Part shown: positions 46,789-63,017 of the stretch, one piece after another
Layout: each line of letters starts with the position of its first letter
Position numbering within the stretch: the first letter of the stretch is position 1
NCBI RefSeq assembly: GCF_000018545.1
Contig: NC_012587.1
Span: forward strand, 992,001-1,056,000
From: Sinorhizobium fredii NGR234
GTDB taxonomy: Bacteria > Pseudomonadota > Alphaproteobacteria > Rhizobiales > Rhizobiaceae
DNA length: 64,000 nucleotides
Reading direction: 5' to 3'
Program-made: the position numbers and the translations under genes
Notes under the pieces: generated by a model
The model's database searches: none
The model's input: the letters and a program-made list of their open reading frames with translations, nothing else
What the model was told of the DNA's origin: nothing

Positions 46789-47634
46789 TCATCGCACCAT
46801 CAACACCGGGACAACCGGGACGTCGATCATCGCCTTCGTCACGCCGCCGAACACCTTTTCGCGGATGCGCGAGTGCCCGTAGGCACCCATCACGATCAGG
46901 TCCGCCGACGTGTCGAGCGCATGCTGGTTGAGAACGTCCTCGACGCGGAGTCCGGCGCCGGGCAGCCGATCGACAGTCACTTTGATACCGTGACGCGCGA
47001 GATAGGCGGCAATATCGGCGCCCGGCTCTCCGCCGCTCTTGCCCGAAGCTGCCCCCGAAGCCGGCTTTGGATCGACCAGAACGACATTCACCCTCTCGGC
47101 GTTTCTCATCACATCCAGCGCTTCGCGGGCCGCCCGTGCCGATTCGATGCTCGCGTTCCATGCCAGGAGAACTTTTCTCGGCCGCAAGGTCGCCGATTGG
47201 AGATCGGCGGCGAGCAGGACCGGTCGCGCTGAGTGGAAGAGAGCGCCTTCTACGACGCCGGCCCGCAGTCGCTCGTCGCTTCTCAAGCTCGAGCCGATCA
47301 CGGTGACATCGGCATACCGCGCCCGTTCTCCGAGATCGTGCTCGAGCCACATCGACTCGGCGTATCGTCCAACCACATCGTGGGATACTCCAAGGCCGTA
47401 GAGCACGTTCCTGGCTTCCTTGACGGCCTTGCCAAGGTCTTCGATGTCGCTGGCCCTTTCGTCAAGCCAGGCGGCCGACATGGCCGCGAAGTCTCCCACC
47501 GGCGGCAAGGTGGCGATCTTGATAGGCAGAACCGAAAGATGCGCGCCGTCCGATGCGCAAAGATTTGCTGCTGCCCGAAGATCACTTTCGAATTGGCTGA
47601 TGCCAATGACAACGAGAATGGTTTTGTAGGACAT
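46789..47634 (-). CDS. Tandem universal stress protein
   Basis: 281 residues with two Usp folds. The first (1-140) starts MSYKTILVVIGISQFESDLR (20 residues). The second (150-281) ends with the ATP-binding signature DLIVMGAYGHSRIREKVFGG (20 residues) and TKAMIDVPVVPVLMVR. Only the second domain has the G-x2-G-x9-G(S/T) nucleotide motif. Such proteins are often induced by low oxygen. GGGAG lies 9 nt before ATG 47634. An FNR-type box 63 nt upstream supports anaerobic control. Confidence 0.88.
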   Translation of the reverse strand: MSYKTILVVIGISQFESDLRAAANLCASDGAHLSVLPIKIATLPPVGDFAAMSAAWLDERASDIEDLGKAVKEARNVLYGLGVSHDVVGRYAESMWLEHDLGERARYADVTVIGSSLRSDERLRAGVVEGALFHSARPVLLAADLQSATLRPRKVLLAWNASIESARAAREALDVMRNAERVNVVLVDPKPASGAASGKSGGEPGADIAAYLARHGIKVTVDRLPGAGLRVEDVLNQHALDTSADLIVMGAYGHSRIREKVFGGVTKAMIDVPVVPVLMVR

Positions 47635-47696
47635 GGTTGGGTCTCCCGAAGCCTGAGCCTGGAAATAGAATTTACTTCCCGGTAACGACGGCGACA

Positions 47697-47710
47697 TTGA
47701 TCGGGGTCAA
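47697..47710 (-). promoter_or_regulatory. FNR/FixK-type box upstream of the universal stress protein gene
   Basis: TTGATCGGGGTCAA, one base from the palindrome TTGAT-N4-ATCAA. It lies 63 nt before the start codon of the minus-strand stress-protein gene, a usual position for class II activation. Confidence 0.65.
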
Positions 47711-47938: not shown

Positions 47939-48334
47939 TCAGTCTTCGCTCGCCAACTGCAACCGACGCGCCCGTTTCAGCAGATTTGACGCCAGCTCCG
48001 CTGCGGCGGCGATGTCGCCGAAGAGCAGCCCGGCTTCCGCGATCATGCCTTCGTCGAGCGCGCCGGGTTCGTTCGGATTGAAATCGCCGAGCAGCACAAG
48101 CAGCGCCTCGATTCGTCGTCGCTGGTTGTCCGCAAGACCGATGAGGCGCTCCGTGATCCGGGCACCTTCAAGTCTTTCGAGGTCGCGCAGCGCCTCCTCC
48201 ATTCGGTCGCGGCATTCGCAGTCGGCCGCGCCGGTCTGCATGACGCCACGCATCCGCTTGACGGCGCGACTGATTTCCTCGCTGGTTTGGGCAAGCGCCG
48301 ATGCGATCGCGGTGGCGGCGTCGTTCGGTCTCAT
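47939..48334 (-). CDS. Unknown 131-aa protein, last coupled gene of the ubiTUV operon
   Basis: 131 residues, predicted almost wholly helical, with a Cys pair in AADCECRDRMEEAL and a heptad-like region EEALRDLERLEGARITERLI (20 residues). No signal peptide or membrane helix. Its ATG overlaps the TGA of ubiV (ATGA), so it is translationally coupled to the O2-independent ubiquinone genes. I do not recognise the family. It may be an accessory or regulatory partner of UbiUV. Its size and helicity would also suit a four-helix-bundle protein. Confidence 0.75.
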   Translation of the reverse strand: MRPNDAATAIASALAQTSEEISRAVKRMRGVMQTGAADCECRDRMEEALRDLERLEGARITERLIGLADNQRRRIEALLVLLGDFNPNEPGALDEGMIAEAGLLFGDIAAAAELASNLLKRARRLQLASED

Positions 48335-49266
48335 TCCGCTCCCCGGTGTCCAATGTTGCGGGCGCGGGCCACCCAGGCGGCGCCTTCCTGGCCGTGGTGA
48401 AATCCGTTTGAAAGCGGGGCCGCGGGATAGAGCTGCCGAAGCCGCGCAATACCGCCTTCGGCATCGGTGCGGCCGTTTAGAACGTCGTCGTAGAGGCTGG
48501 CGACCGCCACCATGTCGCAATCCTGCGGCGACAGCCGGAAGCGGCTGACACCGATCGAGACGAGGTCCAGCAGTTCGGTTAGCAGGGCCTGGCAGGTGAA
48601 TGAGACTGTCTGCACGCCATTAAGGGCGAGGAAGGACTGACGGTCGAGAGTCTTCACCAGCAAACCATCGGGGTCCTCGGCGCAGACGAACTGGCAATTG
48701 TCCTTGATGTGCCCTTTGGCGCGAGCATGCGCACAGCGCGCGGAAATGGCGAGCGGCATTCGCCCGAAGGCGAGCACTTCGAGCGCGATGTCCGGTGTCC
48801 CGGCGGCGATCTCGGCGATCGAGCTTGCGGGCAGTTCGGGCGGCAAGCATATGTTCGACGCACCCCGCCTTGCCAGCAGCCGGGCCGTCGCCGCGTTATA
48901 GACATTGATGAACGGCCCGATCGAATGGGGCTTGCCTTCGAGCAAGGCGAGGGCGGAAAGGTCGTTGGCCTCGATCGGAAAGGGGCTGTCGGCGACGAGG
49001 GAACGGATGTATTGGCTCTCGCGTTCGAGCGTCACGAGGGCGAGGGTGGAAAGGACGACATGCTTTCCTGCCGACTCCAGCCGCTCGATCACCGCCGACA
49101 GATGCGGTTCGGTGAAGTGCAGCCGCTTCGAGCAGACGGTTTCACCGATGATTACGCGGTGCACCGGCGCCTCGTCGGCCATCCGAAAATAGAAGTCCCG
49201 CCACTTCTCCCCCTCCCAGAGGTAGGGAACGGGACCGAGCGTCAGCGTGGGTTTACCGGTATTCAT
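48331..49266 (-). CDS. ubiV: O2-independent ubiquinone hydroxylation protein UbiV
   Basis: 311 residues of the U32 peptidase-like family. Together with UbiU it hydroxylates the ubiquinone ring without O2, using prephenate as oxygen donor. The four Fe-S ligands expected from E. coli UbiV are present: C45 in GETVCSKR, then C178, C191 and C195 in the ARCAHARAKGHIKDNCQFVC stretch (20 residues). The spacing C-x12-C-x3-C is the same as I recall for E. coli C180/C193/C197. ATG 49266 lies 8 nt after GGAGGT. The ATG two codons earlier is too close to it. The gene overlaps the ends of ubiU and of the 131-aa gene. Confidence 0.93.
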   Translation of the reverse strand: MNTGKPTLTLGPVPYLWEGEKWRDFYFRMADEAPVHRVIIGETVCSKRLHFTEPHLSAVIERLESAGKHVVLSTLALVTLERESQYIRSLVADSPFPIEANDLSALALLEGKPHSIGPFINVYNAATARLLARRGASNICLPPELPASSIAEIAAGTPDIALEVLAFGRMPLAISARCAHARAKGHIKDNCQFVCAEDPDGLLVKTLDRQSFLALNGVQTVSFTCQALLTELLDLVSIGVSRFRLSPQDCDMVAVASLYDDVLNGRTDAEGGIARLRQLYPAAPLSNGFHHGQEGAAWVARARNIGHRGAE

Positions 49267-49272
49267 AGACAT

Positions 49273-50250
49273 TTACCTCCAGCGCTTCTCGTAGGCGCCG
49301 GACGTCGTGCGCTGCCCTTCGCTCAACAGCCTGAGGCGGGCAAGCAGGGCCTGGCGGTGTTCGGGTCTCGCATCGAGTGCCTTGCGAAGCGTCGAGACGA
49401 CTTCGGCGACATAGGCCTTGCCCCGCTGTCGGCCCTCGATCTTGAGCGCGCTGACGCCCGCTTCTCTCAGAGCATCGATCTGGTCCATGACGTCGAGGGA
49501 AACCGGGTCCTCGAAGGCATAGCCGCTGGCGTCGGCGATATCGAAGCGGCCCTTGCAAAGCGTCGGGTAGCCTGCCGCTTCCTCGCGCGGAAAGCGGTTG
49601 ATCGTATAGGACCCGAGCTCCGAGACGAGGTCGCCGCCATCCTGCCGGTAGCGCACATGGCTGGCCGGCGAGCACACGCCGTTCATGTTGGGCGATTTGC
49701 CGGTGGCATAGGAGGAGAGCGTGCAGCGGCCTTCGGCCATCACGCAGAGCCCGCCGAAGACGAAGACCTCGATCTCGCAGCGAATCTGCCGGGCGAGGCG
49801 GGCGATGTCGGAGATCGTCAGCGTGCGCGGCAACACGACGCGCTTGGCGCCGAAGGCTTCGACCAGGAAATTCACCGCGTCCGGGTTCGACGCAGAGGCT
49901 TGCACCGAGACGTGCAGCCGTTGCCCGGGATAGGTCTCGGCGACATGGGCCATCAGGCCGAAATCGGCAAGGATGAGCGCGTCGGCGCCGAGGCGGACGG
50001 CGTCGGCCGCAGCCTCGTACCACAGGCTCTCGTGGCCGGCCCGCATGAAGGTGTTGAGCGCCACGAAAGTCTGGGTTCCCTTGCGCCGGGCATAGGAAAT
50101 CGCTTCCCCAAGCTCTTCGCGCGAAAAGTTGAGGCCGGGAAAATTGCGAGCGTTTGTTTCGTCACGGAAGCCGCAATAGACCGCATCGGCGCCGGCATCG
50201 ACCGCTTCGCGGAAGGCCGCCGGCGTTCCGGCCGGGCAGATCAGTTCCAT
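49273..50250 (-). CDS. ubiU: O2-independent ubiquinone hydroxylation protein UbiU
   Basis: 325 residues, U32 peptidase family, partner of UbiV. The start MELICPAGTPAAFREAVDAG (20 residues) is typical. The cluster ligands fall at C169, C176, C193 and C232 (GGLCVMAEGRC, NGVCSP and YPTLCKGRFD), the same positions I recall for the [4Fe-4S] ligands of E. coli UbiU. The start ATG 50250 lies inside the end of ubiT. The large open frame upstream is a shadow of ubiT. With UbiT and UbiV it supports ubiquinone synthesis during anaerobic respiration. Confidence 0.94.
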   Translation of the reverse strand: MELICPAGTPAAFREAVDAGADAVYCGFRDETNARNFPGLNFSREELGEAISYARRKGTQTFVALNTFMRAGHESLWYEAAADAVRLGADALILADFGLMAHVAETYPGQRLHVSVQASASNPDAVNFLVEAFGAKRVVLPRTLTISDIARLARQIRCEIEVFVFGGLCVMAEGRCTLSSYATGKSPNMNGVCSPASHVRYRQDGGDLVSELGSYTINRFPREEAAGYPTLCKGRFDIADASGYAFEDPVSLDVMDQIDALREAGVSALKIEGRQRGKAYVAEVVSTLRKALDARPEHRQALLARLRLLSEGQRTTSGAYEKRWR

Positions 50251-50747
50251 GCGACGGACTCCCCGGCAAGCGCGCGTCGGCGGATCGCAGCCGCCGTTCG
50301 GCTGATAAGCGGGGCGAACGGCCCGGCGGCCGCGCCGAGATCGCGCGGCAGGTCGATCTCCGAGCCGTCGAGGGCGTTGCGCAGCGCCAGCATTGCCTCC
50401 ATGTCGCCGGTGACGGTAAGCGCCCGTGAAAAGAACAGCGCATCGGCGTCGCAGCGGCCTTCGAGAAGCGCCAGCAGCAGGAACAACGGTCCTTCCACTG
50501 CGGCATCGGTGGCGGGATCTGCGGTGCGGCGCAATACGGAGATTGCCGGCCGCGCCGGCTCGACGAGGAAGACGAGCGGCAGGTCGGTCGGCCGGAAGGC
50601 ATAACGTTTCGGTTTGTGCTCGCCGAGACGCTCGAAGAGCGTCGGATGCCGCTTGAGCAAACTCTTGAACATGAGCTTCACTGTCCCCTCGATCAGGGGA
50701 ATCGGCACGGCGGCAAGCGGTGCGGCCAGCGGGCGGGGGACTTCCAT
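50241..50747 (-). CDS. ubiT: Anaerobic ubiquinone biosynthesis accessory factor UbiT
   Basis: 168 residues with an SCP2-type lipid-binding domain (about 45-150), the counterpart of aerobic UbiJ. RRTADPATDAAVEGPLFLLL (20 residues) and DALFFSRALTVTGDMEAMLA (20) are the recognisable part. It is first of the operon ubiT-ubiU-ubiV-131-aa gene, overlapping ubiU by 10 nt. It is needed only in anaerobic ubiquinone synthesis in E. coli. An FNR-family box lies 65 nt upstream. Confidence 0.88.
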   Translation of the reverse strand: MEVPRPLAAPLAAVPIPLIEGTVKLMFKSLLKRHPTLFERLGEHKPKRYAFRPTDLPLVFLVEPARPAISVLRRTADPATDAAVEGPLFLLLALLEGRCDADALFFSRALTVTGDMEAMLALRNALDGSEIDLPRDLGAAAGPFAPLISRTAAAIRRRALAGESVAWN

Positions 50748-50811
50748 AACTCTCGCCTTTTGCGGAATGTCGATTCGACACTGAGCCTAGCGGCGATGTC
50801 CGCTGCACAAT

Positions 50812-50825
50812 TTGAGCCAGCGCAA
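50812..50825. promoter_or_regulatory. FNR/NnrR-type box in the ubiT/ubiD divergent promoter
   Basis: TTGAGCCAGCGCAA fits TTG-N8-CAA and shares its CGCAA half with the nor boxes at 53473 and 54407. It lies 65 nt before ubiT (minus strand) and 35 nt before the ubiD-like gene (plus strand). It could activate ubiT; for ubiD it is closer than a normal activator site. Confidence 0.6.
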
Positions 50826-50859
50826 AGACAGAAGTGGTTTCGCGGGCGAGACACCGCCC

Positions 50860-52368
50860 ATGAACCGCGCAGAGTCACCCATTCGCCGCTTTTCCGGGCT
50901 TCAGGAATTCGCCGCCATGCTCGAGCAGCGTGGCCGGTTGCGCCGCATAGCGCGACCCGTTTCGCTCGTCCATGAGGTGACGGAGATCCACCGGCGCGCG
51001 CTCAAATCAGACGGGCCGGCATTGCTCTTCGAGAAACCGGTCGATGCCTCCGGCCGCATCTGCGACATACCGCTTCTCGTCAATCTGTTCGGCACGCAAG
51101 AGAGGATCGAGTGGGGGTTCGGGCTCCCGACAGGCGGGCTGCCGGCGCTGGCGGATATGCTGGCGGAACTGCGCGAACCGAGACCGCCGCAATCGGTGAA
51201 GGATGCCTGGAGCAAGATGCCGCTGTTGAAAGCCGCGCTTGCGATGCGGCCGCGAAACGTGGCACGGCCGCCAGTGCAGGAGACGGTCTGGCGCGGTTCC
51301 GACGTGGACCTCGGGCGCCTGCCGATCCAGTGGTGCTGGCCGGGCGAGCCGGCGCCGCTTGTCACCTGGCCACTCGTGATCACCCGTGCGCCGGACGATC
51401 CGAGCGACGTCAATGTCGGCGTCTACCGCATGCAGGTGCTCGGCCCGAACCGGCTCATCCTGCGATGGCTGGCGCATCGCGGCGGCGCCCGCCACCACCG
51501 CCTGTGGCGAGACCGCGGCGAGGACATGCCGGTGGCGGTCGCGATCGGCGCCGATCCGGCGACCATCCTTGCGGCGGTGATGCCCTTGCCCGAGAATATG
51601 AGCGAGCTCAACTTTGCCGGACTGCTGAAGGCGGAGCGGCCGCAGGTTGCCCCGGCTATCACCGTGCCGCTGTCGGTTCCGGCCACGGCCGAGATCGTCC
51701 TCGAGGGAGTCGTCTCGTGTAACGAGACCGCCGAAGAGGGACCTTATGGCGACCACACCGGCTACTACAACTCCGTCGAGCGCTTTCCGGTGCTGACGTT
51801 GTCGGCCATCACCATGCGCCGCAAGCCCCACTATCTCTCGACCTATACGGGCCGCCCGCCGGATGAGCCGTCGAAGCTCGGCGAGGCGATGATGGAGCTC
51901 TTCCTGCCGCTGGTGAGGCGGCAATTCCCGGAAATCGTCGACCTCTACCTGCCGCCGGAGGCCTGCTCCTATCGGGCCATGGTGGTCTCGCTCGACAAGC
52001 GATATCCGGGTCAGGCGAAGCGGATCATGATAGGCCTGTGGTCGATGCTGCCGCAGTTCACCTACACCAAGCTGATCATCGCCGTCGATCCGGATATCGA
52101 CGTCAGGAATTGGGCCGACGTCATCTGGGCGATTTCGACCCGCTTCGACGCCAGCCGCGACGTCACGATCCTCACCGATACGCCCATCGACTATCTCGAT
52201 TTCGCCTCGCCAAAGCCGGGGCTCGGCGGCAAGCTCGGGCTCGACGCGACCAGAAAGCTTGGAGCCGAGACGGAGCGCGAGTGGGGGCGTGTTCTCGAAA
52301 TGCCGGCGGAACTCGTCGAGAGGGTGGATCGGCTCTGGGTGGAACTGGGTCTGGGAGAACCCTCATAA
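50860..52368 (+). CDS. ubiD: UbiD-family decarboxylase
   Basis: 502 residues. UbiD enzymes decarboxylate 4-hydroxy-3-polyprenylbenzoate with prenylated FMN, an early ubiquinone step. The prFMN and metal site is visible: NVGVYRMQVLGPNRLILRWL (20 residues), HRGGARHHR and the catalytic Glu region NETAEEGPYGDHTGYY. It is divergent from ubiT over a shared box. This links it to the anaerobic route, although UbiD itself works with or without oxygen. ATG 50860 is used; an in-frame TTG at 50812 lies inside the regulatory box and is rejected. No ubiX, which makes the cofactor, is in the window. Confidence 0.88.
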   Translation: MNRAESPIRRFSGLQEFAAMLEQRGRLRRIARPVSLVHEVTEIHRRALKSDGPALLFEKPVDASGRICDIPLLVNLFGTQERIEWGFGLPTGGLPALADMLAELREPRPPQSVKDAWSKMPLLKAALAMRPRNVARPPVQETVWRGSDVDLGRLPIQWCWPGEPAPLVTWPLVITRAPDDPSDVNVGVYRMQVLGPNRLILRWLAHRGGARHHRLWRDRGEDMPVAVAIGADPATILAAVMPLPENMSELNFAGLLKAERPQVAPAITVPLSVPATAEIVLEGVVSCNETAEEGPYGDHTGYYNSVERFPVLTLSAITMRRKPHYLSTYTGRPPDEPSKLGEAMMELFLPLVRRQFPEIVDLYLPPEACSYRAMVVSLDKRYPGQAKRIMIGLWSMLPQFTYTKLIIAVDPDIDVRNWADVIWAISTRFDASRDVTILTDTPIDYLDFASPKPGLGGKLGLDATRKLGAETEREWGRVLEMPAELVERVDRLWVELGLGEPS

Positions 52369-52403
52369 TAGTCTCCCGGCGGTTGCTGGGCGGCAACGCG
52401 GGT

Positions 52404-53090
52404 TCAATTGGCGGTCGCCAGCACCAACGGGTCGGCATAGAACAGGACGGCATGGCCGCCGGCAAGCAGCCACAGCGTCAGGGCCGCCGTCGATACGGCC
52501 GCCAAGGCCAGCGGCCAGTCCCCCGTGACGCGAGCGCGTCCGGTGAGAACCGCCGCGAAAGGCAGGATCGACGTCGCCGCAGCCTCTTGTGACCATTTTT
52601 CCCCGAGCCGTCGGCGCGCACGTTTCTCCAGCATCGGTATGCTGGCAAGCGCGAACAGCGCGAAGCCCCCGAAGAGGATCAGCGAGCGCAGGTCTCCATT
52701 GGCGACCAGATGGCCGAGCGCCCAGATGGCGAAGCCCCAAAGAACGGGATGCCGGGTGATCGCGACGACGGCGCCCGGCATCGCTCCCTGGCGGATCGAG
52801 GCCGACAGCGGGTTGACGCTGAAGAGCCCGGCAAGCACGAGAAAGACACCGGTCGGGGCGGCGATCAGCGTGACCCAGGCCTGCCAGGCCGTCGGGTCCC
52901 AAAGCGGAATGTAGTCGACGTTCAATGCCGCGTAGAACACCCAGCCGAGGACGAGGATGGAAACGATCGAATAGAGCGAGAAATAGGTCGCCCTGCCGAG
53001 ACGGGCTATCAGCCGCTCGCGAATAGCGGGCATCGCCGGAATGGAGTGGAGGAGAAGAAAAACGAGGAGCGCCAGCAGGAATTGCAGCAT
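52404..53090 (-). CDS. nnrU: NnrU family membrane protein
   Basis: 228 residues with about six membrane helices. The NnrU signature is present: LLLHSIPAMPAIRERLIARL (20 residues), RLGRATYFSLYSIVSILVL and ITRHPVLWGFAIWALGHLVA (20). NnrU is required for nitrite and NO respiration in Rhodobacter, its biochemical role being unsettled; the fold is related to isoprenylcysteine methyltransferase-like and NnrU/MAPEG-type helical proteins. The gene is convergent with ubiD and follows the 51-aa gene on the same strand. Confidence 0.88.
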   Translation of the reverse strand: MLQFLLALLVFLLLHSIPAMPAIRERLIARLGRATYFSLYSIVSILVLGWVFYAALNVDYIPLWDPTAWQAWVTLIAAPTGVFLVLAGLFSVNPLSASIRQGAMPGAVVAITRHPVLWGFAIWALGHLVANGDLRSLILFGGFALFALASIPMLEKRARRRLGEKWSQEAAATSILPFAAVLTGRARVTGDWPLALAAVSTAALTLWLLAGGHAVLFYADPLVLATAN

Positions 53091-53472: not shown

Positions 53473-53486
53473 TTGATCAAGCGCAA
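53473..53486. promoter_or_regulatory. NnrR/FNR-type box between norE and the 51-aa gene
   Basis: TTGATCAAGCGCAA, TTG-N8-CAA. It is 53 nt before norE (plus strand) and 47 nt before the 51-aa gene (minus strand), so it can serve both divergent transcripts. Confidence 0.7.
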
Positions 53487-53539: not shown

Positions 53540-54091
53540 ATGGAAAACGCAATAGCGGCCGGCGCAGCCGGCGAAGAGGAAGCGGACACCTTTATTCTCT
53601 GGGTCCTGATCTGGAGCGAGCTTGCCGCCTTCGGCATTCTCATCGGCGCCTTCCTGGTGGCGTCGATGATCGCGCCGGAGGATTTCGCCATCGCACGGCT
53701 CCACCTCAAACCGGGAATTGCCGCTCTCAACACGCTGGTGCTGCTGACCAGCGGCTGGCAGGCCGCGATCGCGGCGGGGCAGCATGCGTCCACCGCCAGG
53801 CGGCGGCGGGCATTGGTGCTGGCGGCGCTTCTTGGCTTCGCCTTCGTTGCCATCAAGATCTACGAGTACAGCACCGAAATCCGTTTTGCCGGCGAGGCCG
53901 CGTTCCATTCCTTCTTCGAACTGTACTTCATCCTCACCGGCTTTCACCTCGTCCACGTGGGCTTCGTCGGCCTCCTGCTGCTCGTCGTCGCCTGGAGACC
54001 GCGTCCGGTCAATATCGTTCTCGTTACCACCCTCTGGCACGTCATCGATCTCGTCTGGATCGTCATGTTCCCGATACTCTATCTGGTGTGA
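53540..54091 (+). CDS. norE: NorE, cytochrome oxidase subunit III-like protein
   Basis: 183 residues with five membrane helices, of the haem-copper oxidase subunit III family. The hallmark FHSFFELYFILTGFHLVHVG (20 residues) lies in the middle, and the C-terminus is TLWHVIDLVWIVMFPILYLV. NorE is not catalytic but raises NO reductase activity in Paracoccus and Rhodobacter. It is followed by norF 5 nt later. Confidence 0.92.
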   Translation: MENAIAAGAAGEEEADTFILWVLIWSELAAFGILIGAFLVASMIAPEDFAIARLHLKPGIAALNTLVLLTSGWQAAIAAGQHASTARRRRALVLAALLGFAFVAIKIYEYSTEIRFAGEAAFHSFFELYFILTGFHLVHVGFVGLLLLVVAWRPRPVNIVLVTTLWHVIDLVWIVMFPILYLV

Positions 54092-54096
54092 ACAGG

Positions 54097-54387
54097 ATGA
54101 CCGACCGCACCCCCCGACAGTTGACGAAGACCTGGATCATCCTCGTCCTGATGGTTCTTGCCGGTCTGCTGCTTTCGCTCAAAGTCCAGGACACTGCCGC
54201 CCCACTGGTCTTCACGCTCGGCTTCCTGATGCTCGCGGTCCTGAAGGCCCGTCTCGTCGTCCTGGATTTTCTGGGCCTGCGTTCCGGCCCGCGGGTCTTG
54301 CGGGTTGGCCTCATCGTTTGGCCGCTGTTCTTCGCGCTTGCCGCTGCGGCAAAAGCGCTCATCGCATCCATTTCTCTCGTCGGCTGA
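54097..54387 (+). CDS. norF: NorF, small NO reductase accessory membrane protein
   Basis: 96 residues with three predicted membrane helices (LTKTWIILVLMVLAGLLLSL, then VFTLGFLMLAVLKARLVVLD, each 20, and a third near 75-92). The pattern and the place between norE and norC are those of NorF; family members resemble cytochrome c oxidase subunit IV in size. The central KARLVVLDFLGLR with charged residues inside a helix is typical. ATG 54097 is taken; a GTG three codons upstream overlaps norE. Confidence 0.85.
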   Translation: MTDRTPRQLTKTWIILVLMVLAGLLLSLKVQDTAAPLVFTLGFLMLAVLKARLVVLDFLGLRSGPRVLRVGLIVWPLFFALAAAAKALIASISLVG

Positions 54388-54406: not shown

Positions 54407-54420
54407 TTGCAGAAACGCAA
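54407..54420 (+). promoter_or_regulatory. NnrR-type box upstream of norC
   Basis: TTGCAGAAACGCAA, close to the NnrR sites described for Rhodobacter-type nor promoters (TTG...CGCAA or CACAA). It lies 126 nt before the norC start, leaving room for an untranslated leader of about 85 nt. Confidence 0.65.
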
Positions 54421-54546
54421 AGACCGGCCGCGCGCAGACCTTAGAAGAGATCGCGTTTACCGGTGGGCGGGGGAATCCGCGGCCGACCGGCGGGAATTGC
54501 GCAGGTCCGCGTGATTGCGGCCTCCGGGAATAGAAAGGACCATGGG

Positions 54547-54999
54547 ATGGCAGAACGCCTTACCAAGACAGGGGCACGGAACGTCTTCTACGGCGGTTCC
54601 ATCTTCTTCTTCGCAATCTTTGTCGGCCTCACGGCCCACAGCCACTACTACATGAAAACCGAATCCACCGACGAGTCGACGCTGACCGACTCCGTCGCGC
54701 GCGGCAAGCACGTCTGGGAGAAGAACTCCTGTATCAACTGCCACACCCTGCTCGGCGAGGGCGCCTATTTCGCACCGGAGATCGGCAATGTGTGGAAGCG
54801 ATGGGGCGGCGAGTCCGACCCGGAAGGCGCGCGCGAGACGCTCAAGTCCTGGATGGCCGCACAGCCCTCCGGTGCCGAAGGGCGGCGGCAGATGCCGCAA
54901 TTCAATCTCACCGAGCAGGAACTGAACGACCTTGCCGACTTCCTCGAATGGACGAGCCGCATCAAGACGCAGAACTGGCCTCCGAACGAGGCGGGTTGA
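54547..54999 (+). CDS. norC: Nitric oxide reductase, cytochrome c subunit
   Basis: 150 residues. One N-terminal membrane anchor (RNVFYGGSIFFFAIFVGLTA, 20 residues) holds a periplasmic haem c domain. The haem motif is CINCH in WEKNSCINCHTLLGEGAYFA (20), and the axial Met is probably in RRQMPQFNLTEQEL. It passes electrons from cytochrome c to NorB. AAGGA lies 11 nt before ATG 54547. Confidence 0.96.
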   Translation: MAERLTKTGARNVFYGGSIFFFAIFVGLTAHSHYYMKTESTDESTLTDSVARGKHVWEKNSCINCHTLLGEGAYFAPEIGNVWKRWGGESDPEGARETLKSWMAAQPSGAEGRRQMPQFNLTEQELNDLADFLEWTSRIKTQNWPPNEAG

Positions 55000-55023: not shown

Positions 55024-56370
55024 ATGAAATATCAAACCCAAAAGGTCGCGATGCTGTATTTCTACGGCGCGCTCGGCCTGTTTCTTGCCCAGGTCCTGTT
55101 CGGCGTGCTCGCCGGCACCATCTACGTGCTGCCCAACACGCTCTCCGAATTGCTGCCCTTCAACATCGTTCGCATGGTGCATACCAACGCGCTGATCGTC
55201 TGGCTGCTGATGGGCTTCATGGGCGCCACCTACTATCTCTTGCCGGAAGAAGCGGAAACCGAGCTCTACAGCCCGAAGATCGCGATCGCCCAGTTCTGGA
55301 TCTTCCTCATCGCCGCGGCCGTTGCGGTCGTCGGCTATCTCTTCCACATCCACGAGGGCCGGGAATTCCTTGAACAGCCCTTCGCGATCAAGGTCGGTAT
55401 CGTCGTCGTGGCGCTGATGTTTCTCTTCAACATCACCCTGACGGTCCTCAAGGGCCGCAAGACGACGGTAACAAACATCCTGATCTTCGGCCTCTGGGGT
55501 GTGGCGATCTTCTTCCTGTTCGCCTTCTACAACCCGATCAATCTCGCGCTCGACAAGATGTACTGGTGGTATGTCGTGCATCTCTGGGTCGAAGGCGTCT
55601 GGGAACTGATCATGGCCTCCGTGCTGGCCTTCCTGATGATCAAGCTCAACGGCATCGACCGTGAGGTCGTCGAAAAGTGGCTCTACGTCATCGTCGGCCT
55701 GGCGCTCTTCTCCGGCATCCTCGGCACCGGCCACCACTACTACTGGATCGGCGCGCCGGGCTACTGGCAGTGGATCGGTTCGCTGTTCTCGACGCTCGAG
55801 GTCGCGCCCTTCTTCACCATGGTGGTCTTCACCTTCGTGATGACCTGGAAGGCCGGCCGCAAGCATCCGAACAAGGCGGCTCTCCTCTGGTCGATCGGCT
55901 GCTCGGTGATGGCGTTCTTCGGCGCCGGCGTCTGGGGCTTCCTGCACACGCTGTCGTCGGTCAACTACTACACCCACGGCACGCAGGTCACCGCCGCGCA
56001 CGGGCACCTCGCCTTCTTCGGTGCCTATGTGATGCTCAACCTTGCGATCATGGCCTATGCCATTCCGGAGATCCGCGGGCGGGCGCCCTATAACCAGTGG
56101 CTGTCGATCGTCAGCTTCTGGGCCATGTGCAGCGCGATGTCGGTAATGACCTTCGCACTCACCTTCGCCGGCGTCGTCCAGGTCCACCTGCAGCGGGTCC
56201 TCGGTGAGAGCTTCATGGCCGTGCAGGACCAACTCGCGCTCTTCTACTGGGTGCGCCTCGGCTCCGGCGTCGTCGTCCTGATCTCGGCGCTCATGTTCAT
56301 CTGGGCGGTCCTGGTCCCTGGCCGGAGCCGGAGTCCGGCTCCTAGCCAGGCCGTCCAACCTGCCGAATGA
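55024..56370 (+). CDS. norB: Nitric oxide reductase, large subunit
   Basis: 448 residues with twelve membrane helices. It reduces two NO to N2O at a haem b3/non-haem iron centre. A haem b ligand is the His in NIVRMVHTNALIVWLLMGFM (20 residues). The active-site region has WVEGVWELIMASVLAF, with the Glu specific to NO reductases, and TGHHYYWIGAPGYWQ with the iron-binding His pair. LSSVNYYTHGTQVTAAHGHL (20) carries the next His ligands. The length fits the NorC-dependent (cNor) type; the quinol-type fusion N-terminus is absent. Confidence 0.97.
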   Translation: MKYQTQKVAMLYFYGALGLFLAQVLFGVLAGTIYVLPNTLSELLPFNIVRMVHTNALIVWLLMGFMGATYYLLPEEAETELYSPKIAIAQFWIFLIAAAVAVVGYLFHIHEGREFLEQPFAIKVGIVVVALMFLFNITLTVLKGRKTTVTNILIFGLWGVAIFFLFAFYNPINLALDKMYWWYVVHLWVEGVWELIMASVLAFLMIKLNGIDREVVEKWLYVIVGLALFSGILGTGHHYYWIGAPGYWQWIGSLFSTLEVAPFFTMVVFTFVMTWKAGRKHPNKAALLWSIGCSVMAFFGAGVWGFLHTLSSVNYYTHGTQVTAAHGHLAFFGAYVMLNLAIMAYAIPEIRGRAPYNQWLSIVSFWAMCSAMSVMTFALTFAGVVQVHLQRVLGESFMAVQDQLALFYWVRLGSGVVVLISALMFIWAVLVPGRSRSPAPSQAVQPAE

Positions 56371-56438
56371 GGTCCAGCGGGCGGTCCGATGACGGGCCGC
56401 CCGCCTTTTGTCCTGCCAATCGATTTCGGAGTTTTCCA

Positions 56439-57251
56439 ATGAACATCGCCTTGAAAAACCCGCTGGCTGCGGAACACGACATCCCGGCCTATTCTCCCTC
56501 GGGTCAGGAATGCGCGCTCTTCGAAAGCGCCTGGATTCGCCGGCTCCCGCTGCTCTTGAAGGGGCCGACCGGCTGCGGCAAGACGCGCTTCGTTGCCCAT
56601 ATGGCCGCAAGGCTCGGCCTGCCGCTTTCAACCGTGTCGTGCCATGACGACCTTGCCGCCGCGGACCTGACCGGCCGTTATCTCCTCAAGGGCGGTGATA
56701 CCGTGTGGGTCGACGGGCCGCTGACGCGCGCCGTTCGCGAGGGCGGCATCTGCTATCTCGACGAGATCGTCGAGGCCCGCAAGGACGTCGCCGTCGTGCT
56801 CCATCCCCTGACCGACGACCGGCGCATCCTGCCGCTGGAACGCACCGGCGAGGTGCTCGAGGCGCCGCCCGGCTTCATGCTGGTCGTCTCCTATAACCCC
56901 GGCTACCAGAACCTCCTGAAAACCCTGAAGCCGAGCACGCGCCAGCGCTTCGTCGCCATCGAGTTTGACTTTCTGCCGCGGGATCGCGAGATCGCCGTCG
57001 TCTCTGAGGAAAGCGGCCTCGACGCCGCCCGGGTCGCACCGCTCGTCGATCTCGCCCATCGGCTGCGAGCCTTGAAAGGCCACGACCTCGAGGAAGGCGT
57101 ATCGACGCGCCTCATCGTCTACTGCGCGAGCCTGGTCGATAGCGGCCTGTCGCTGCGCGACGCCGTGATCGCGACGATGATCGAGCCGCTGACGGACGAG
57201 CCGGACGTCAAGGCGGCGCTGATCGAGGTCGCCGACGCGATCATCCGCTGA
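56439..57251 (+). CDS. norQ: NorQ, AAA+ ATPase activating NO reductase
   Basis: 270 residues, MoxR/CbbQ-type AAA+ protein. Walker A is GPTGCGKT at 42-49 and the Walker B region is GICYLDEIVEARKDV. The N-terminus reads YSPSGQECALFESAW. With NorD it inserts the non-haem iron into NorB. GGAG lies 8 nt before ATG 56439; the longer frame overlapping norB is not needed. Confidence 0.94.
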   Translation: MNIALKNPLAAEHDIPAYSPSGQECALFESAWIRRLPLLLKGPTGCGKTRFVAHMAARLGLPLSTVSCHDDLAAADLTGRYLLKGGDTVWVDGPLTRAVREGGICYLDEIVEARKDVAVVLHPLTDDRRILPLERTGEVLEAPPGFMLVVSYNPGYQNLLKTLKPSTRQRFVAIEFDFLPRDREIAVVSEESGLDAARVAPLVDLAHRLRALKGHDLEEGVSTRLIVYCASLVDSGLSLRDAVIATMIEPLTDEPDVKAALIEVADAIIR

Positions 57252-57386: not shown

Positions 57387-59282
57387 ATGCTGGATTTCCT
57401 CGAACTCGAAGAAACCGTCGGCCGCGCCTGGCACCGCCTCATCGGCAACACGCGCACCTGGCCGCGCTTTCCGCATGAGGCCGTCCGGCTTGACGAGGTC
57501 CAGGCCGTTCTTGCGGTATACTTCCGCGGTCTCGGCGGAGAGCGGGCGGTTCAGATCGCGCCTGCCCGCGGCCGCACCTCGACGCATCGTCTGCGGTTGC
57601 GCCAGCGCATGGGGCTTGGCGAGGAAAAGCTTGTGCAGCCTGCACGCGACCACGCGACCTTGATGCTGCCGGCCGAGATCGATCTTTTTCCTCTCCGGCG
57701 GCTCAACCGCGATCTCTACTTTTGGCTGGCGGCGACGATGGCGGTCATGCCGCTCTCGCCGATCCGTGACGGCGATCCTCTCGCCCGTGACCTGTCAAGC
57801 CTCGCCCGGGCGGAAGAGACGGTGCGGGCAGTGCTCACGACCTTCCCGGCGCTGCGTCCGCGCTATCGGCGTCTCTGCAAGGCAGTGCTCGACGTACGGC
57901 AAAGGCGGTCGCTTCCGGCGGTCGAGCAGCATGTCGAAAATCGAACCCTGGACATTCTGAAAAGAGGTGCCGGACGGATCGAGGAAGTGATGCCGGTGAT
58001 CTTTCCTAGTCGTGCGCCGCCCGGCTACCTGCCGATGCTGCCGGTGCCGCTCTGGCCCGACGCGCTGCTGCGTGAAGAGACGGAGCGGCGGAACGGCGAA
58101 GACGAGCCGGCGCGCGGCGGCGGCAGGGCGGAAGGACCGGAGACGACGCGCCATGTGGCAACGCGCGAGGCGCAGCGGCAGTCGGAGCGGAGCCCTTTCA
58201 TCCTCAACCGCTTCGAAAAAATTCTCGCCATGGCCGAGATGGTCAATGTCGATCGCCCCGCCGACGACAGCGACGATCACGACGCCAGCGCCGCCGACGA
58301 GCTTGACGACATGACGCTCGGCGAACGGCAGGGTCGTCCGGCCGCACGCTTTCGCTTCGACCTCGACCTGCCGCCGGAAGCGCTCGACCGGACCCCGCTC
58401 ATGGCGGAACTTACTTATCCCGAATGGGACTATCGCAGCGGCAGCTACCTCAAGGATCATTGCCGCGTGCTTGCCGCACCGGCTTCGGCAGAAGGCACGG
58501 CCGGCGAGGCGGACCCGGCGACGAAGAGCCTGATCCGGCGCGTGCGTCGTCAGTTCGAAGTCTTGCGGCCGCGCCACGAGATGCTGCGGGCACAGATTGA
58601 CGGGGCCGATCTCGATCTCGACGCGGTTGTCCGGGCTCGAACCGACCTTAGGGCCGGGGGGCAGGGCAGCGACCGCATCCACATGATGAGCCGTCCGCAG
58701 GCGCACGATCTCGCAGTGACGATCCTCGTCGACGTGTCGCTCTCGACCGACGCCTGGTTCGACGATCTCCGCGTCCTCGACGTCGAGAAGCAGGCGCTTC
58801 TGGTCCTGGCGCACGGGCTCTCCGCCTGCGGCGATGCTCATGAAATCCTCACCTTCACCTCGCGGCGGCGGGATTGGGTGCGGATCGAGACGGTCAAGGC
58901 ATTCGACGAGGCGATGAGCGCGACCATCGAGGCGCGCATCGCGGCGCTGAAACCCGGCTACTACACGCGCATCGGCACCGCCATCCGGCACGCCGCAGCG
59001 GGTCTTGTCGAACGGCCGAACCGCCGCAAACTCCTGATCGTCCTCACCGACGGCAAGCCGAACGATGTCGATCACTACGAGGGGCGGTTTGCGCTCGAAG
59101 ACAGCCGCCGGGCTGTCGGCGAAGCACGCCGCTCGGGGGTCAGCGTGTTCGGGGTGACAGTGGATCGCGAGGCGAAATCCTACATTCCGGTGATCTTCGG
59201 GCAAAACGGCTATGCCGTCGTCAGCAATATCGGCAGGCTGCCTTCGGCTCTGCCGGCAATCTATCGCGGCCTCGTAAGGTAG
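57387..59282 (+). CDS. norD: NorD, VWA-domain protein for NO reductase activation
   Basis: 631 residues. The C-terminal 200 residues are a von Willebrand factor A domain with a MIDAS motif DVSLSTD in VTILVDVSLSTDAWFD and a later LIVLTDGKPNDVDHYEGRFA (20 residues). The middle is acidic and poorly conserved (DRPADDSDDHDASAADELDD, 20). It works with NorQ in the cytosol to mature NorB. The length is normal for NorD. Confidence 0.93.
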   Translation: MLDFLELEETVGRAWHRLIGNTRTWPRFPHEAVRLDEVQAVLAVYFRGLGGERAVQIAPARGRTSTHRLRLRQRMGLGEEKLVQPARDHATLMLPAEIDLFPLRRLNRDLYFWLAATMAVMPLSPIRDGDPLARDLSSLARAEETVRAVLTTFPALRPRYRRLCKAVLDVRQRRSLPAVEQHVENRTLDILKRGAGRIEEVMPVIFPSRAPPGYLPMLPVPLWPDALLREETERRNGEDEPARGGGRAEGPETTRHVATREAQRQSERSPFILNRFEKILAMAEMVNVDRPADDSDDHDASAADELDDMTLGERQGRPAARFRFDLDLPPEALDRTPLMAELTYPEWDYRSGSYLKDHCRVLAAPASAEGTAGEADPATKSLIRRVRRQFEVLRPRHEMLRAQIDGADLDLDAVVRARTDLRAGGQGSDRIHMMSRPQAHDLAVTILVDVSLSTDAWFDDLRVLDVEKQALLVLAHGLSACGDAHEILTFTSRRRDWVRIETVKAFDEAMSATIEARIAALKPGYYTRIGTAIRHAAAGLVERPNRRKLLIVLTDGKPNDVDHYEGRFALEDSRRAVGEARRSGVSVFGVTVDREAKSYIPVIFGQNGYAVVSNIGRLPSALPAIYRGLVR

Positions 59283-59637: not shown

Positions 59638-60990
59638 CTACGCCGCCTTGCTGTGCGTCCTGCCCGACTGCTCCAGATAGGCATCGAAGGCGGCGGCGAC
59701 GGCGCGGATCAGAAATCGTCCTTCATCGCGCAACCGTATGACCCCGCCGACATTTTCGAGGATGCCGTCGCTTTCGAGCATTGCGAGCTTGGCGTTGCCG
59801 TGGAGCAGCATCTGCGGGTCGAAGCCGTGTGCGGCGGCGATGGCGGGCACATCGACGCGGAAGTCGCACATCAGCCGCTCGATGATGTTTGCCCTGAGCC
59901 GGTCCTCCGCCGTCAGGCGATAGCCCTTCACGGTGGCAAGACGGCCGGAGGCGATCCGCTGCGCATAGACACCGGGAGGTATCTCGTTCTGGACATAACC
60001 ATCCGTCATCCGGCCGATGGCCGAGGCACCGAAGCCGATGAGGGTCTCGCAGGCGTCGGTCGTGTAGCCCTGGAAATTGCGGCGCAACTGCCCGTTTTGC
60101 TGTGCGAGTGCCAGGCTGTCGTCCGGCCGGGCGAAATGGTCGAGGCCGATGCGGCGGTAGCCGGCGGCGACGAGAGTTGCGGCTATCGCTTCGGCCTGGG
60201 CGACGCGGCCTTCCGCATCCGCCAGCGCTTTCTCGTCAATGAGCTTCTGATGCTTCTTGAAGGACGGGATATGGGCATAGCCGAAGACCGCGAAGCGGTC
60301 CGGCCCCATGGCGATTGCGGCCTTGGCCGTTTCGATGCAGGATTCGACCGTCTGGTGCGGCAGGCCGTAGATGAGATCGAAATTGATGCTGTCGACGCCG
60401 GCCCGGCGCAGCCGGGAAACCGCCTCCATCGTTTGCTCCTCGCTCTGGATCCGGTTGATCGCCTTCTGCACGACCGGATCAAAGCTCTGCACCCCGAGAC
60501 TTGCCCGGCGGACCCCGGCTTCTCCGAGAGCCGTGGCCATCTCCTGCTCGAGCGTCCGGGGATCGATCTCCACGGCGATCTCGGCGGTATCGGCGAAGTC
60601 GAAACGCTCGCGCAGAAGCCGGACAAGCGCCAGCATTTCCTCCGGCTGCATGATCGTCGGTGTTCCCCCGCCGAAATGCACATGGTCGATGTTGAGCGGC
60701 GCCTTCGTCCTTGCGGCCACGAGGCCTATCTCCTGGCGGAGCATGTCGAGGTAGTCGAGGATCGGCTGGTCGCGCTGTGTGATCGTCGTGTGGCAGCCGC
60801 AGTACCAGCACATCGAGCGGCAGAAAGGGATGTGCAGGTAGAGCGACGCCGGCCTGTCGAGCGGCGTTGCGGCAAGCCAGTCGCGATAGGTGCCGACGTC
60901 GATCGCGGGTGAGAAGCGCGGCGCAGTCGGGTAGCTCGTGTAGCGCGGCAGGCGCGCCTCGCCATATTTCGCGACAAGGGACGGTTGCAT
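59638..60990 (-). CDS. hemN: Oxygen-independent coproporphyrinogen III dehydrogenase
   Basis: 450 residues, radical SAM enzyme that decarboxylates two propionates of coproporphyrinogen III without O2. The cluster motif is CRSMCWYCGCH (C-x3-C-x2-C plus the HemN-type extra Cys). YLHIPFCRSMCWYCGCH and HVHFGGGTPTIM are diagnostic of true HemN rather than HemW. It provides haem for NorB, NorC and other cytochromes under low oxygen. An FNR-type box lies 68 nt upstream. It is convergent with norD. Confidence 0.95.
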   Translation of the reverse strand: MQPSLVAKYGEARLPRYTSYPTAPRFSPAIDVGTYRDWLAATPLDRPASLYLHIPFCRSMCWYCGCHTTITQRDQPILDYLDMLRQEIGLVAARTKAPLNIDHVHFGGGTPTIMQPEEMLALVRLLRERFDFADTAEIAVEIDPRTLEQEMATALGEAGVRRASLGVQSFDPVVQKAINRIQSEEQTMEAVSRLRRAGVDSINFDLIYGLPHQTVESCIETAKAAIAMGPDRFAVFGYAHIPSFKKHQKLIDEKALADAEGRVAQAEAIAATLVAAGYRRIGLDHFARPDDSLALAQQNGQLRRNFQGYTTDACETLIGFGASAIGRMTDGYVQNEIPPGVYAQRIASGRLATVKGYRLTAEDRLRANIIERLMCDFRVDVPAIAAAHGFDPQMLLHGNAKLAMLESDGILENVGGVIRLRDEGRFLIRAVAAAFDAYLEQSGRTHSKAA

Positions 60991-61057: not shown

Positions 61058-61071
61058 TTGACCAATATCAA
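61058..61071 (-). promoter_or_regulatory. FNR/FixK box upstream of hemN
   Basis: TTGACCAATATCAA, one base from TTGAT-N4-ATCAA, the best FNR/FixK match in the window. It lies 68 nt before the hemN start codon on the minus strand. Confidence 0.75.
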
Positions 61072-61103: not shown

Positions 61104-61117
61104 TTGCTCGGCGTCAA
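61104..61117 (+). promoter_or_regulatory. FNR-family box facing the DUF2249 gene
   Basis: TTGCTCGGCGTCAA fits TTG-N8-CAA. It lies 107 nt before the DUF2249 gene at 61225 and 33 bp from the hemN box, so the divergent genes appear to have separate sites. Confidence 0.5.
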
Positions 61118-61658: not shown

Positions 61659-63017
61659 ATGCCAGGCGCCACGCTTTCCCGATGGACGATGTCCTACTTC
61701 GCTGCCGCCTGCCTCTTCCTGCTGATTGGCGAAGGCGCGATGGCGGCTGGTTACGGTTATCCGTTCGCGGGCGTCGATGCGCCGGAAACCCTGGCGCTCG
61801 TCCATGTTGTCGCCATCGGCTGGCTCGGCCTGCTGATGGTGGGAGCGCTCCTGCAATTCGTGCCGGTGCTGGTCGCCGCACCGCTGCGCTGGCGGCGGCT
61901 GGCCCTGCCGGTCCTGCTTCTGCTTGTCGGCGGACTTCTTTTGCTCGTCGGCGGCTTTGGTGCCTTGGCGGGTGTAGCCGCGCTTTCACCCGGCATGCTG
62001 CCGTTCGGAGCGTTGTTGCTGGTGAGCGGTTTCGGACTTGCGGCCGCCATGCTGGCGGCGACGCTCTGTTCGGCACGGCCGCTGCCGCTGCCGGCCCGTT
62101 TCGTCGGGCTGGGACTGGTTGCGCTGGTGGCGACGGTTCTGGTCGGCGCCGTCTTCGCCCTCGTTCTTTCAGGCACCGTCGCGAGTGATCTCGCTGCTAC
62201 GTTGCTCATCTATGGCGTGCCGTCCCACGCAGCCCTCGGTCTCGGCGGCTGGCTGACCCTCACCGCCGTCGGGGTCAGCTACCGGCTGCTGCCGATGTTC
62301 ATGCTTGCGCCCGAGGAAACGCGCGGCACGTCCCGCCTCGTCTGGTGGGCCGCTAGCGCCGCCTTGGCGCTGGTCGTGGGCCGTATCGCCTGGCTCGTCT
62401 TTGATGTCTCGGCCGCGCGGGGACCGCTCGCGTTTGCGACGCTTCTTGCTGGTATCGCCACCCTTCTCTATTGCGCCGACGTGATCCGTCTGTTTCGCGA
62501 GCGCCGGCGCAAGGCGGTGGAACTCAATATCCGCGCAAGCTATGCGGCATTTGTGGCTCTCTTCCTGTCCGTGGCGTTGTTCATCGTCCCAGGCGCCAGG
62601 GCGGCGGCCGGCGAGGGGGCGGCGGCTCTCGTCTACCTCTTCGTCTTCGGCTGGCTCACGGGACTGGGGCTCGCACAGCTCTATAAGATCGTTCCCTTCC
62701 TGACCTGGCTCGAATGCTATGGCTCGGTTCTCGGCCGCGCCGCGGTCCCGCGTGTGCAGGATCTCGTCCGGGAGGGCCGCTCGAGCCTCTGGTTCTGTCT
62801 CTACTACGCAGCCGTGGCGGCGGCCACCGGCTCGCTTTTTGCCGAGAGCGCCCTATGGTTTCGCGCGGCGCTGCTGCTGCAACTCATTGCCACTGTCGGC
62901 CTGATGGCGGAACTGGTGCGCGCCCGGATGCTCTCATCCGTTGCCGAGCCGCTGCGTTTCCCCGTCGGGGCGCCAAGACCGCATCTCTTTCTTCCAATCG
63001 CTCGACAACAGGAGTGA
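61659..63017 (+). CDS. Polytopic membrane protein, NnrS-like/oxidase subunit I-like
   Basis: 452 residues with about twelve membrane helices. Histidines occur inside or at the ends of helices in patterns seen in haem-copper oxidase subunit I and NnrS: TLALVHVVAIGWLGLLMVGA (20 residues) and YGVPSHAALGLGGWLTLTAV (20), then RLLPMFMLAP. I cannot name it with certainty. It may be a haem- or copper-binding relative of NnrS. The gene is followed 3 nt later by the tandem DUF2249 gene, so they are one operon. A further nnrS-like gene ends at the window edge. Confidence 0.65.
   Translation: MPGATLSRWTMSYFAAACLFLLIGEGAMAAGYGYPFAGVDAPETLALVHVVAIGWLGLLMVGALLQFVPVLVAAPLRWRRLALPVLLLLVGGLLLLVGGFGALAGVAALSPGMLPFGALLLVSGFGLAAAMLAATLCSARPLPLPARFVGLGLVALVATVLVGAVFALVLSGTVASDLAATLLIYGVPSHAALGLGGWLTLTAVGVSYRLLPMFMLAPEETRGTSRLVWWAASAALALVVGRIAWLVFDVSAARGPLAFATLLAGIATLLYCADVIRLFRERRRKAVELNIRASYAAFVALFLSVALFIVPGARAAAGEGAAALVYLFVFGWLTGLGLAQLYKIVPFLTWLECYGSVLGRAAVPRVQDLVREGRSSLWFCLYYAAVAAATGSLFAESALWFRAALLLQLIATVGLMAELVRARMLSSVAEPLRFPVGAPRPHLFLPIARQQE

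Follow-up and report, generated by a model that had tools for sequence, protein, structure and literature searches.

Gene content of the locus

The window analyzed here, a 64,000-nucleotide stretch of the Sinorhizobium fredii NGR234 genome (C3:992001-1056000; the genome has 6,891,900 bases in three contigs, including C3 with 3,925,702 bases and C2 with 2,430,033 bases), holds what its sequence identifies as an O2-independent ubiquinone module, made up of ubiT, ubiU, ubiV and a divergent ubiD. Leftward run ubiT, ubiU, ubiV and a gene for a protein of 131 amino acids (aa), rightward runs ubiD, and beyond it lie nnrU, norE-norF-norC-norB-norQ-norD and hemN (Table 1).

UbiU, UbiV and UbiT all score above the curated NCBIfam cut-offs for the O2-independent pathway (UbiU being scored with 5 extra upstream codons), and the best UbiU matches among named relatives are those of Sinorhizobium/Ensifer, with 94-97% identity. 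Cysteines occur in UbiU at positions 5, 26, 158, 169, 176, 193 and 232, and in UbiV at 47, 142, 180, 193, 197, 227 and 252. Both proteins carry four 4Fe-4S ligand cysteines, as the original prediction had proposed, with UbiU 169/176/193/232 and UbiV C180-x12-C193-x3-C197 numbered identically to the ligands proven in Escherichia coli (PMC6747719), and with the first UbiV ligand, C47 here versus C39 in E. coli, matched by profile offset, not alignment. The prediction also had the four leftward genes overlapping one another, which is correct for ubiT and ubiU (10 bp) and for ubiV and the 131-aa gene (4 bp, ATGA), while ubiU and ubiV abut, the TAA of one being followed by the ATG of the other. It rightly placed nnrU, nor and hemN next door, with norC, norB, norQ and norD in the order of a cNor cluster. 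The small gene between norE and norC we take, from its position, to be norF. Locus tags published for NGR234 (NorC NGR_c09850, NirK NGR_c09950, NapABC NGR_c10020-10040; PMC3732241) follow the same order as the genes of this region. As a separate observation, a short ubiU remnant with an internal stop is present in one genome of the genus (L167; G242:C13:307842-307904).

Table 1. Genes and sequence elements of the ubi-nor region (window positions; bits are profile scores)
Feature	Position	Strand	Evidence or remark
131-aa gene (CxC three-helix family)	47939..48334	-	ATGA overlap with ubiV stop
ubiV, 4Fe-4S U32-family, O2-independent ubiquinone hydroxylation	48331..49272	-	NF047965, 369.3 bits, cut-off 275; Cys 47, 180, 193, 197
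ubiU, 4Fe-4S U32-family partner	49273..50250	-	NF047963, 490.3 bits, cut-off 440; Cys 169, 176, 193, 232
ubiT, SCP2 lipid-binding accessory factor	50241..50747	-	NF047962, 72.9 bits, cut-off 46.9; PF02036
Crp/Fnr-type box TTGAGCCAGCGCAA between divergent ubiT and ubiD	50812..50825	.	TTG-N8-CAA in 72/72 divergent relatives
ubiD, prenylated-FMN-dependent 3-polyprenyl-4-hydroxybenzoate decarboxylase	50860..52368	+	TIGR00148, 464.8 bits, cut-off 244.85
35-bp junction, ubiX site in most relatives	52369..52403	.	no ubiX match in window
nnrU	52404..53090	-	PF07298, 170.8 bits
TTG-N8-CAA box upstream of norE	53473..53486	.	
norE (COX3-like)	53540..54091	+	PF00510
norF-like small membrane protein	54088..54387	+	label from position
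TTG-N8-CAA box upstream of norC	54407..54420	.	
norC, cytochrome c; start codon uncertain	54463..54999	+	PF00034
norB	55024..56370	+	PF00115
norQ	56433..57251	+	CbbQ/NirQ/NorQ C-terminal PF08406
norD (VWA)	57387..59282	+	PF00092
hemN, O2-independent coproporphyrinogen oxidase	59638..60990	-	PF04055 and PF06969
TTG-N8-CAA box, hemN/DUF2249-gene intergenic	61058..61071	.	
Second TTG-N8-CAA box, hemN/DUF2249-gene intergenic	61104..61117	.	

UbiD and anaerobic ubiquinone synthesis

UbiD aligns over residues 8-497 of 501 with the E. coli UbiD structure 5m1c (E 7.9e-169), contains the domains PF01977, PF20696 and PF20695, and passes the subfamily model TIGR00148 (scan begun at 50863). We followed its distribution in 219 genomes of the order, each at least 95% complete, taking 62 of the 64 genomes with a UbiU match as UbiU-positive; G009 and G050 were dropped since they have only paralogs at 168-175 bits, and three with a UbiU slightly below the cut-off were counted as present (G012, partial; G131; G151). 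A ubiquinone-type UbiD, defined by a score above 500 bits (scores fall from 508.7 directly to 188.3), occurs in 43 of the 62 UbiU-positive genomes and in none of the 157 UbiU-negative ones (Fisher P 5e-31, relatedness ignored), and thus belongs to the anaerobic branch. All 43 also have a UbiX over its cut-off, which is found in 20 of the 157 UbiU-negative genomes as well, and at most 5 kb separates UbiD from UbiU in 30 of the 43, part of the remainder being split contigs. By this distribution, the classical ubiquinone decarboxylase UbiD is, in this order, a gene of anaerobic life only.

The pattern fits Rhodobacter capsulatus, in which strains lacking ubiD-ubiX lose anaerobic growth but not growth in air, where UbiN carries out the decarboxylation (PMC10626278). 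The NGR234 genome encodes a putative UbiN, a salicylate-hydroxylase-like oxygenase (C3:1359844-1361022, L200), and also two UbiH/UbiF-family hydroxylases above their cut-offs. UbiN-like matches at E ≤ 1e-50, with up to 8 candidates scored per genome, occur in 187 of the 219 genomes, including 132 of the 157 without UbiU and 41 of the 43 with UbiD.

Several results weigh against the explanation of the locus proposed below. UbiD falls below the cut-off of the E. coli-type equivalog PRK10922 (593.3 of 788 bits), which none of the 219 genomes of the order reaches, and is therefore filed as UbiD family and not as that equivalog; the UbiN-like protein likewise falls short with the NCBIfam model that fits it best (PRK06475, 334.5 bits against a cut-off of 524). 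Moreover, 19 of the 62 UbiU-positive genomes have no ubiquinone-type UbiD, and the pathway can therefore run without it. The ubi neighborhoods of all 19 (L175-L193) yielded no candidate for a replacement anaerobic decarboxylase among frames of at least 90 aa: UbiV and UbiU recur in 19 and UbiT in 18, the next clusters (15 and 13 loci) overlap ubi genes and resemble shadow frames, and the largest others are ABC-transporter ATPase-like (7 loci) and Crp/Fnr-like (6 loci). Five of these 19 genomes also have no UbiN-like oxygenase at E ≤ 1e-50.

A conserved TTG-N8-CAA box and the NO-respiration regulon

As predicted, ubiD diverges from a Crp/Fnr-type box shared with ubiT. From the center of the box it is 72 bp to ubiT and, according to which start codon is taken, 41-44 bp to ubiD. 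Among the best 80 of 581 confirmed related loci (L033-L112), 72 carry divergent ubiT and ubiD genes no more than 900 bp apart and were used for comparison, the other 8 being set aside. At least one TTG-N8-CAA is present in 72 of these 72 intergenic regions, against a mean of 2.2 loci in base shuffles (maximum 7 in 300) and 3.9 at random places in the same loci (maximum 10), so that this element, conserved and at promoter distance, exceeds chance.

Directly past the window (C3:1056001-1075000, L168) follow nirK (562.5 bits vs a cut-off of 296.3), a nirV-like gene with an FGE-sulfatase match only, a Crp/Fnr gene and napA-napB-napC, so that the gene block spans the steps from nitrate to N2O. The names nirV, napB and napC are our presumptive labels; an nnrS label for 61659-63017 found no match in a Pfam scan and is not relied on. 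The window and the next 19 kb together contain 17 TTG-N8-CAA sites versus a shuffle mean of 9.0. A box lies at most 300 bp upstream of 8 of 12 anaerobic or denitrification starts (ubiT, ubiD, norE, norC, hemN, the DUF2249 gene, nirK and a napF-like start), compared with 0 of 5 housekeeping starts; one box is shared by ubiT and ubiD, and two by hemN and the DUF2249 gene. Separately, a universal stress protein gene (usp, 46789-47697, - strand), left out of this count, has an FNR-like box, TTGATCGGGGTCAA, at 47697-47710, just upstream of its probable start.

The original prediction held that ubiquinone supply and NO reduction are switched on together. Boxes at ubi, nor, hemN, nirK and the nap start, and the Crp/Fnr gene beside nirK, point in this direction, as do data from relatives. 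In Bradyrhizobium diazoefficiens, the bll7628-bll7627 operon (sterol-binding and U32 peptidase), by annotation of the ubiT-ubiU type, has TTGTTCCCGCTCAA at -48 and shows expression reduced 10.3- and 15-fold by an nnrR mutation and raised 10.1- and 75.3-fold by anoxia (PMC6710368), and in Hyphomicrobium denitrificans the ubi genes are co-regulated with denitrification (PMC12423496). On the other side, boxes within 300 bp are lacking at nnrU, the nnrS-labeled gene, the regulator gene and napA; no named equivalog cut-off is reached by the Crp/Fnr gene next to nirK, so its "NnrR" label rests on position; and in NGR234 bacteroids NirK rises 37-56-fold while NorC falls 2-3-fold (PMC3732241). The ubi module probably belongs to the same regulon as NO respiration, though the bacteroid values argue against simple co-switching in this strain.

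Linkage of ubi to nor is common among relatives but not universal: of the 71 related loci of at least 18 kb, 31 are flanked by a match to norB, norC, norQ or norD, which in the case of L083 is just a 24% norB-like match. This partial linkage suits a different account, in which an O2-sensing FNR/FixK-type protein, not an NO-sensing NnrR, controls the module and the nor genes are mere neighbors. The half-sites range from TTGCG-N4-CGCAA (several Rhizobiaceae, Devosia) to the perfect FNR-type TTGAT-N4-ATCAA, the latter at 8 Brucella-named loci (L074, L075, L079, L087, L094-L096 and L098), with an NnrR-like form elsewhere, so that different lineages may use different regulators; in E. coli, too, Fnr controls ubiUV and ubiT (PMC10470549). 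The window's own right half-site, however, is CGCAA, and bll7628-bll7627 drop 10-15-fold in the nnrR mutant under denitrifying anoxia (PMC6710368), although FixK2 stands above NnrR in that cascade. We regard FNR/FixK control as a real possibility, but the less probable one, and retain an NnrR-type activator for what follows.

A small CxC protein encoded after ubiV

Neither Pfam nor NCBIfam yields a match to the 131-aa protein, of which 130 aa were scanned. An alignment with 24 relatives from the 80 loci leaves C39, C41, L82, F105 and A112 invariant besides the start, and a profile matches 151 proteins, none of which carries a Pfam domain among the 120 listed; the named members are called hypothetical, uncharacterized or putative protein. 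Its AlphaFold model has three helices (mean pLDDT 87.5), for which Foldseek found no match in the PDB at E ≤ 0.001 (best 0.63) and thus no clue to function. Besides those of the 80 loci (L033-L112), homologs occur in L224-L227.

That this gene adds a fourth subunit, dedicated to the UbiTUV pathway, is suggested by its ATGA overlap with ubiV at many loci and by the order sample, in which 11 of the 13 genomes with a match (up to 18 best candidates scored per genome, of 219) are UbiU-positive. The positions of the gene argue otherwise: among the 13 it directly follows ubiV in five and lies about 0.5 kb after it in G131, whereas it follows nirV in four (G123, G144, G162 and G180) and is near weak Crp/Fnr-like or usp-like matches in G151 and G203, the match in G003 being weak. 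In addition, 51 of the 62 UbiU-positive genomes have no match under the same scoring. A fourth subunit is thus unlikely, and a ubiquinone-specific role was rejected as the principal interpretation; judged by its genomic company, it is more likely a small protein associated with anaerobiosis or NO than a ubiquinone enzyme. Among the titles and abstracts listed from the open-access PMC literature, none dealt with such a family, subscription papers being mostly outside this coverage.

Loss of the operon ubiX and a distal UbiX

No ubiX is present in the window, an absence overlooked in the earlier description of the module, and only 35 bp separate ubiD from nnrU. Of the 71 long loci, 70 contain ubiD and 62 ubiX; the shorter loci L085, L110 and L112, which end early, were left out of the count of ubiX absences. 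A genome-wide search returned a single UbiX, at C2:194440-194985 (L113:9408-9992, - strand; 225.3 bits), on the 2.4-Mb replicon.

This arrangement recurs. In a survey of 33 genomes of the genus, UbiU is above the cut-off in 23, with ubiX beside it in 20 and not in three (G000, which is the window genome, G224 and G237), and the distal UbiX proteins of G224 and G237 are 97.9% and 95.9% identical to that of the window genome. Another UbiX exists in 4 of the 20 genomes with a local ubiX, and a UbiX in 1 of the 10 genomes without UbiU above the cut-off, a group that includes G248, only 70% complete. Five other S. fredii strains have the same UbiX on plasmid records (96.6-98.9% identity over residues 16-194). 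Whole-genome searches for the nine long loci without a local ubiX found a UbiX over the cut-off elsewhere in 9 of 9, and a second UbiX in 1 of 5 comparison genomes with a local one. In the order sample, UbiX and UbiD are no more than 2.5 kb apart in 38 of the 43 genomes (one of which, G137, has a second UbiX over the cut-off), with UbiX elsewhere in G000, G023, G087, G092 and G116. Altogether, 15 distinct ubiD-bearing genomes have no adjacent ubiX (the L033 genome, which is G237 by coordinates, counted once) and 15 of 15 have UbiX elsewhere, in G255, G256 and G258 on the same contig, tens of kb away.

We compared distal and operon proteins in a midpoint-rooted UbiX tree of 83 rows, 15 distal and 68 operon, the operon rows being drawn from the 80 loci and G155 only. 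L100 was excluded for its odd length; two distal rows have the same sequence, and one is encoded in a genome that keeps a local ubiX as well. All 15 distal rows split from all 68 operon rows (support 100/98). When five distal rows from another four genomes are added, a single label change still suffices, with support lowered to 81/87 and agreement in 78% of bootstrap trees; two of the added rows, that of G087 and one of the pair from G023, stand on long branches outside both groups. This split indicates that the distal UbiX proteins are not relocated operon copies, and mere relocation of ubiX within the genome is unsupported; the distal proteins need not form one clade. Operon ubiX appears to have been lost in about seven lineages, a rough figure obtained without a species tree, the losses falling in Sinorhizobium, Neorhizobium and kin, Martelella, Tianweitania, a Hyphomicrobiales metagenome-assembled genome and two further families.

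A UbiD-like gene, 25-30% identical to the window UbiD, lies in 13 of 19 stretches around a distal UbiX, including L174, whose genome keeps its local ubiX, and was not found in the other 6. In the window genome it is about 3.3 kb from UbiX, with genes for a GntR-like regulator and a TctC-type receptor nearby, and because of these neighbors we read the setting of the distal UbiX as catabolic. On this evidence we lean toward the view that S. fredii-type rhizobia, and independently other lineages, have lost the prenyl-FMN synthase of the operon and rely on a UbiX from outside the operon group, often near a UbiD-like decarboxylase. In NGR234, with this UbiX on the 2.4-Mb replicon, ubiquinone-dependent anaerobic respiration encoded by the chromosome would then be hostage to what genes that replicon contains. 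Among the titles and abstracts listed from the open-access PMC literature, none dealt with a displaced ubiX, subscription papers again being mostly outside coverage.

That the chromosomal UbiD has instead been idle since ubiX was lost, another enzyme decarboxylating anaerobically as in the 19 genomes with UbiU and no UbiD, would agree with the clean 35-bp junction, but is improbable given that ubiD is intact and under purifying selection (dN/dS 0.152 and 0.130 vs two ubiX-less relatives, 0.126-0.150 vs three with ubiX), that UbiX accompanied UbiD in all 43 genomes of the order sample and in 9 of 9 genomes of long loci without a local ubiX, and that no extra gene recurs beside ubiTUV in the 19.

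Proposed mechanism and significance

Taken together, we consider it very probable that the locus serves O2-independent ubiquinone synthesis in a denitrifying rhizobium and lies within its NO-respiration regulon, with a UbiX of the second replicon as the likely partner of UbiD. Without O2, the aerobic flavin hydroxylases would fail, including the UbiN-like oxygenase that would otherwise decarboxylate and hydroxylate at once. UbiD would then strip the carboxyl group from the prenylated precursor, as homology and R. capsulatus genetics suggest, and the UbiU-UbiV iron-sulfur pair would perform the hydroxylations, assisted by the SCP2 lipid-binding UbiT; all three proteins are needed in E. coli and, by extension, presumably here. 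A Crp/Fnr-family activator, most likely the product of the NnrR-type gene beside nirK, is proposed to bind the ubiT/ubiD box and activate transcription in both directions along with nor, nir, nap and hemN, a scheme suggested by the conserved boxes and the B. diazoefficiens nnrR data. The lineage has lost the ubiX that normally follows ubiD, and prenylated FMN for UbiD would most likely come from the sole remaining UbiX, on the 2.4-Mb replicon.

The original interpretation is largely right but not new, ubi-nor clustering and NnrR dependence being known in relatives (PMC12423496, PMC6710368); its surprise at finding such a layout in an "aerobic" group is misplaced, as rhizobial denitrification is well studied and the clustering already published (PMC12423496). 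As far as the searches show, what is new comprises the box at 72 of 72 loci, the rule with numbers that UbiD occurs only with UbiU, the undescribed CxC family, and the repeated loss of operon ubiX, always with a UbiX from outside the operon group. These results make quinone supply part of the regulon for denitrification in rhizobia, which are a soil source of N2O, and provide a physiological rule whereby UbiD in this order marks anaerobic life. If our reading of the displaced ubiX is true, one gene of a second replicon should decide whether ubiquinone forms without O2. The 19 genomes with UbiU and no UbiD mark where to seek the anaerobic decarboxylase.

Comparison with known systems

In E. coli, ubiD presumably lies away from ubiUV and ubiT. 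The locus in NGR234 resembles E. coli ubiUV/ubiT (yhbUVT) in having the same three proteins with the same cysteine ligands, under Crp/Fnr-family control in E. coli (PMC6747719, PMC10470549), but there they form two divergent operons under Fnr (PMC10470549). B. diazoefficiens bll7628-bll7627 is likewise an SCP2 and U32 operon behind a TTG-N8-CAA box, there anoxia-induced and NnrR-dependent, which we equate by annotation; "ubi" and "ubiquinone" occur 0 times in the main text of PMC6710368, where this presumptive ubiT-ubiU operon went unrecognized as ubiquinone genes.

The H. denitrificans ubiXDTUV cluster (Hden_0564-0598) shares with the present locus its association with nor but, unlike it, includes ubiX (PMC12423496). 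Finally, the UbiN, UbiD-X and UbiU-V division of R. capsulatus accounts for a need for UbiD only without O2, with ubiD and ubiX sharing an operon there (PMC10626278), whereas in NGR234 the sole UbiX is encoded on another replicon.

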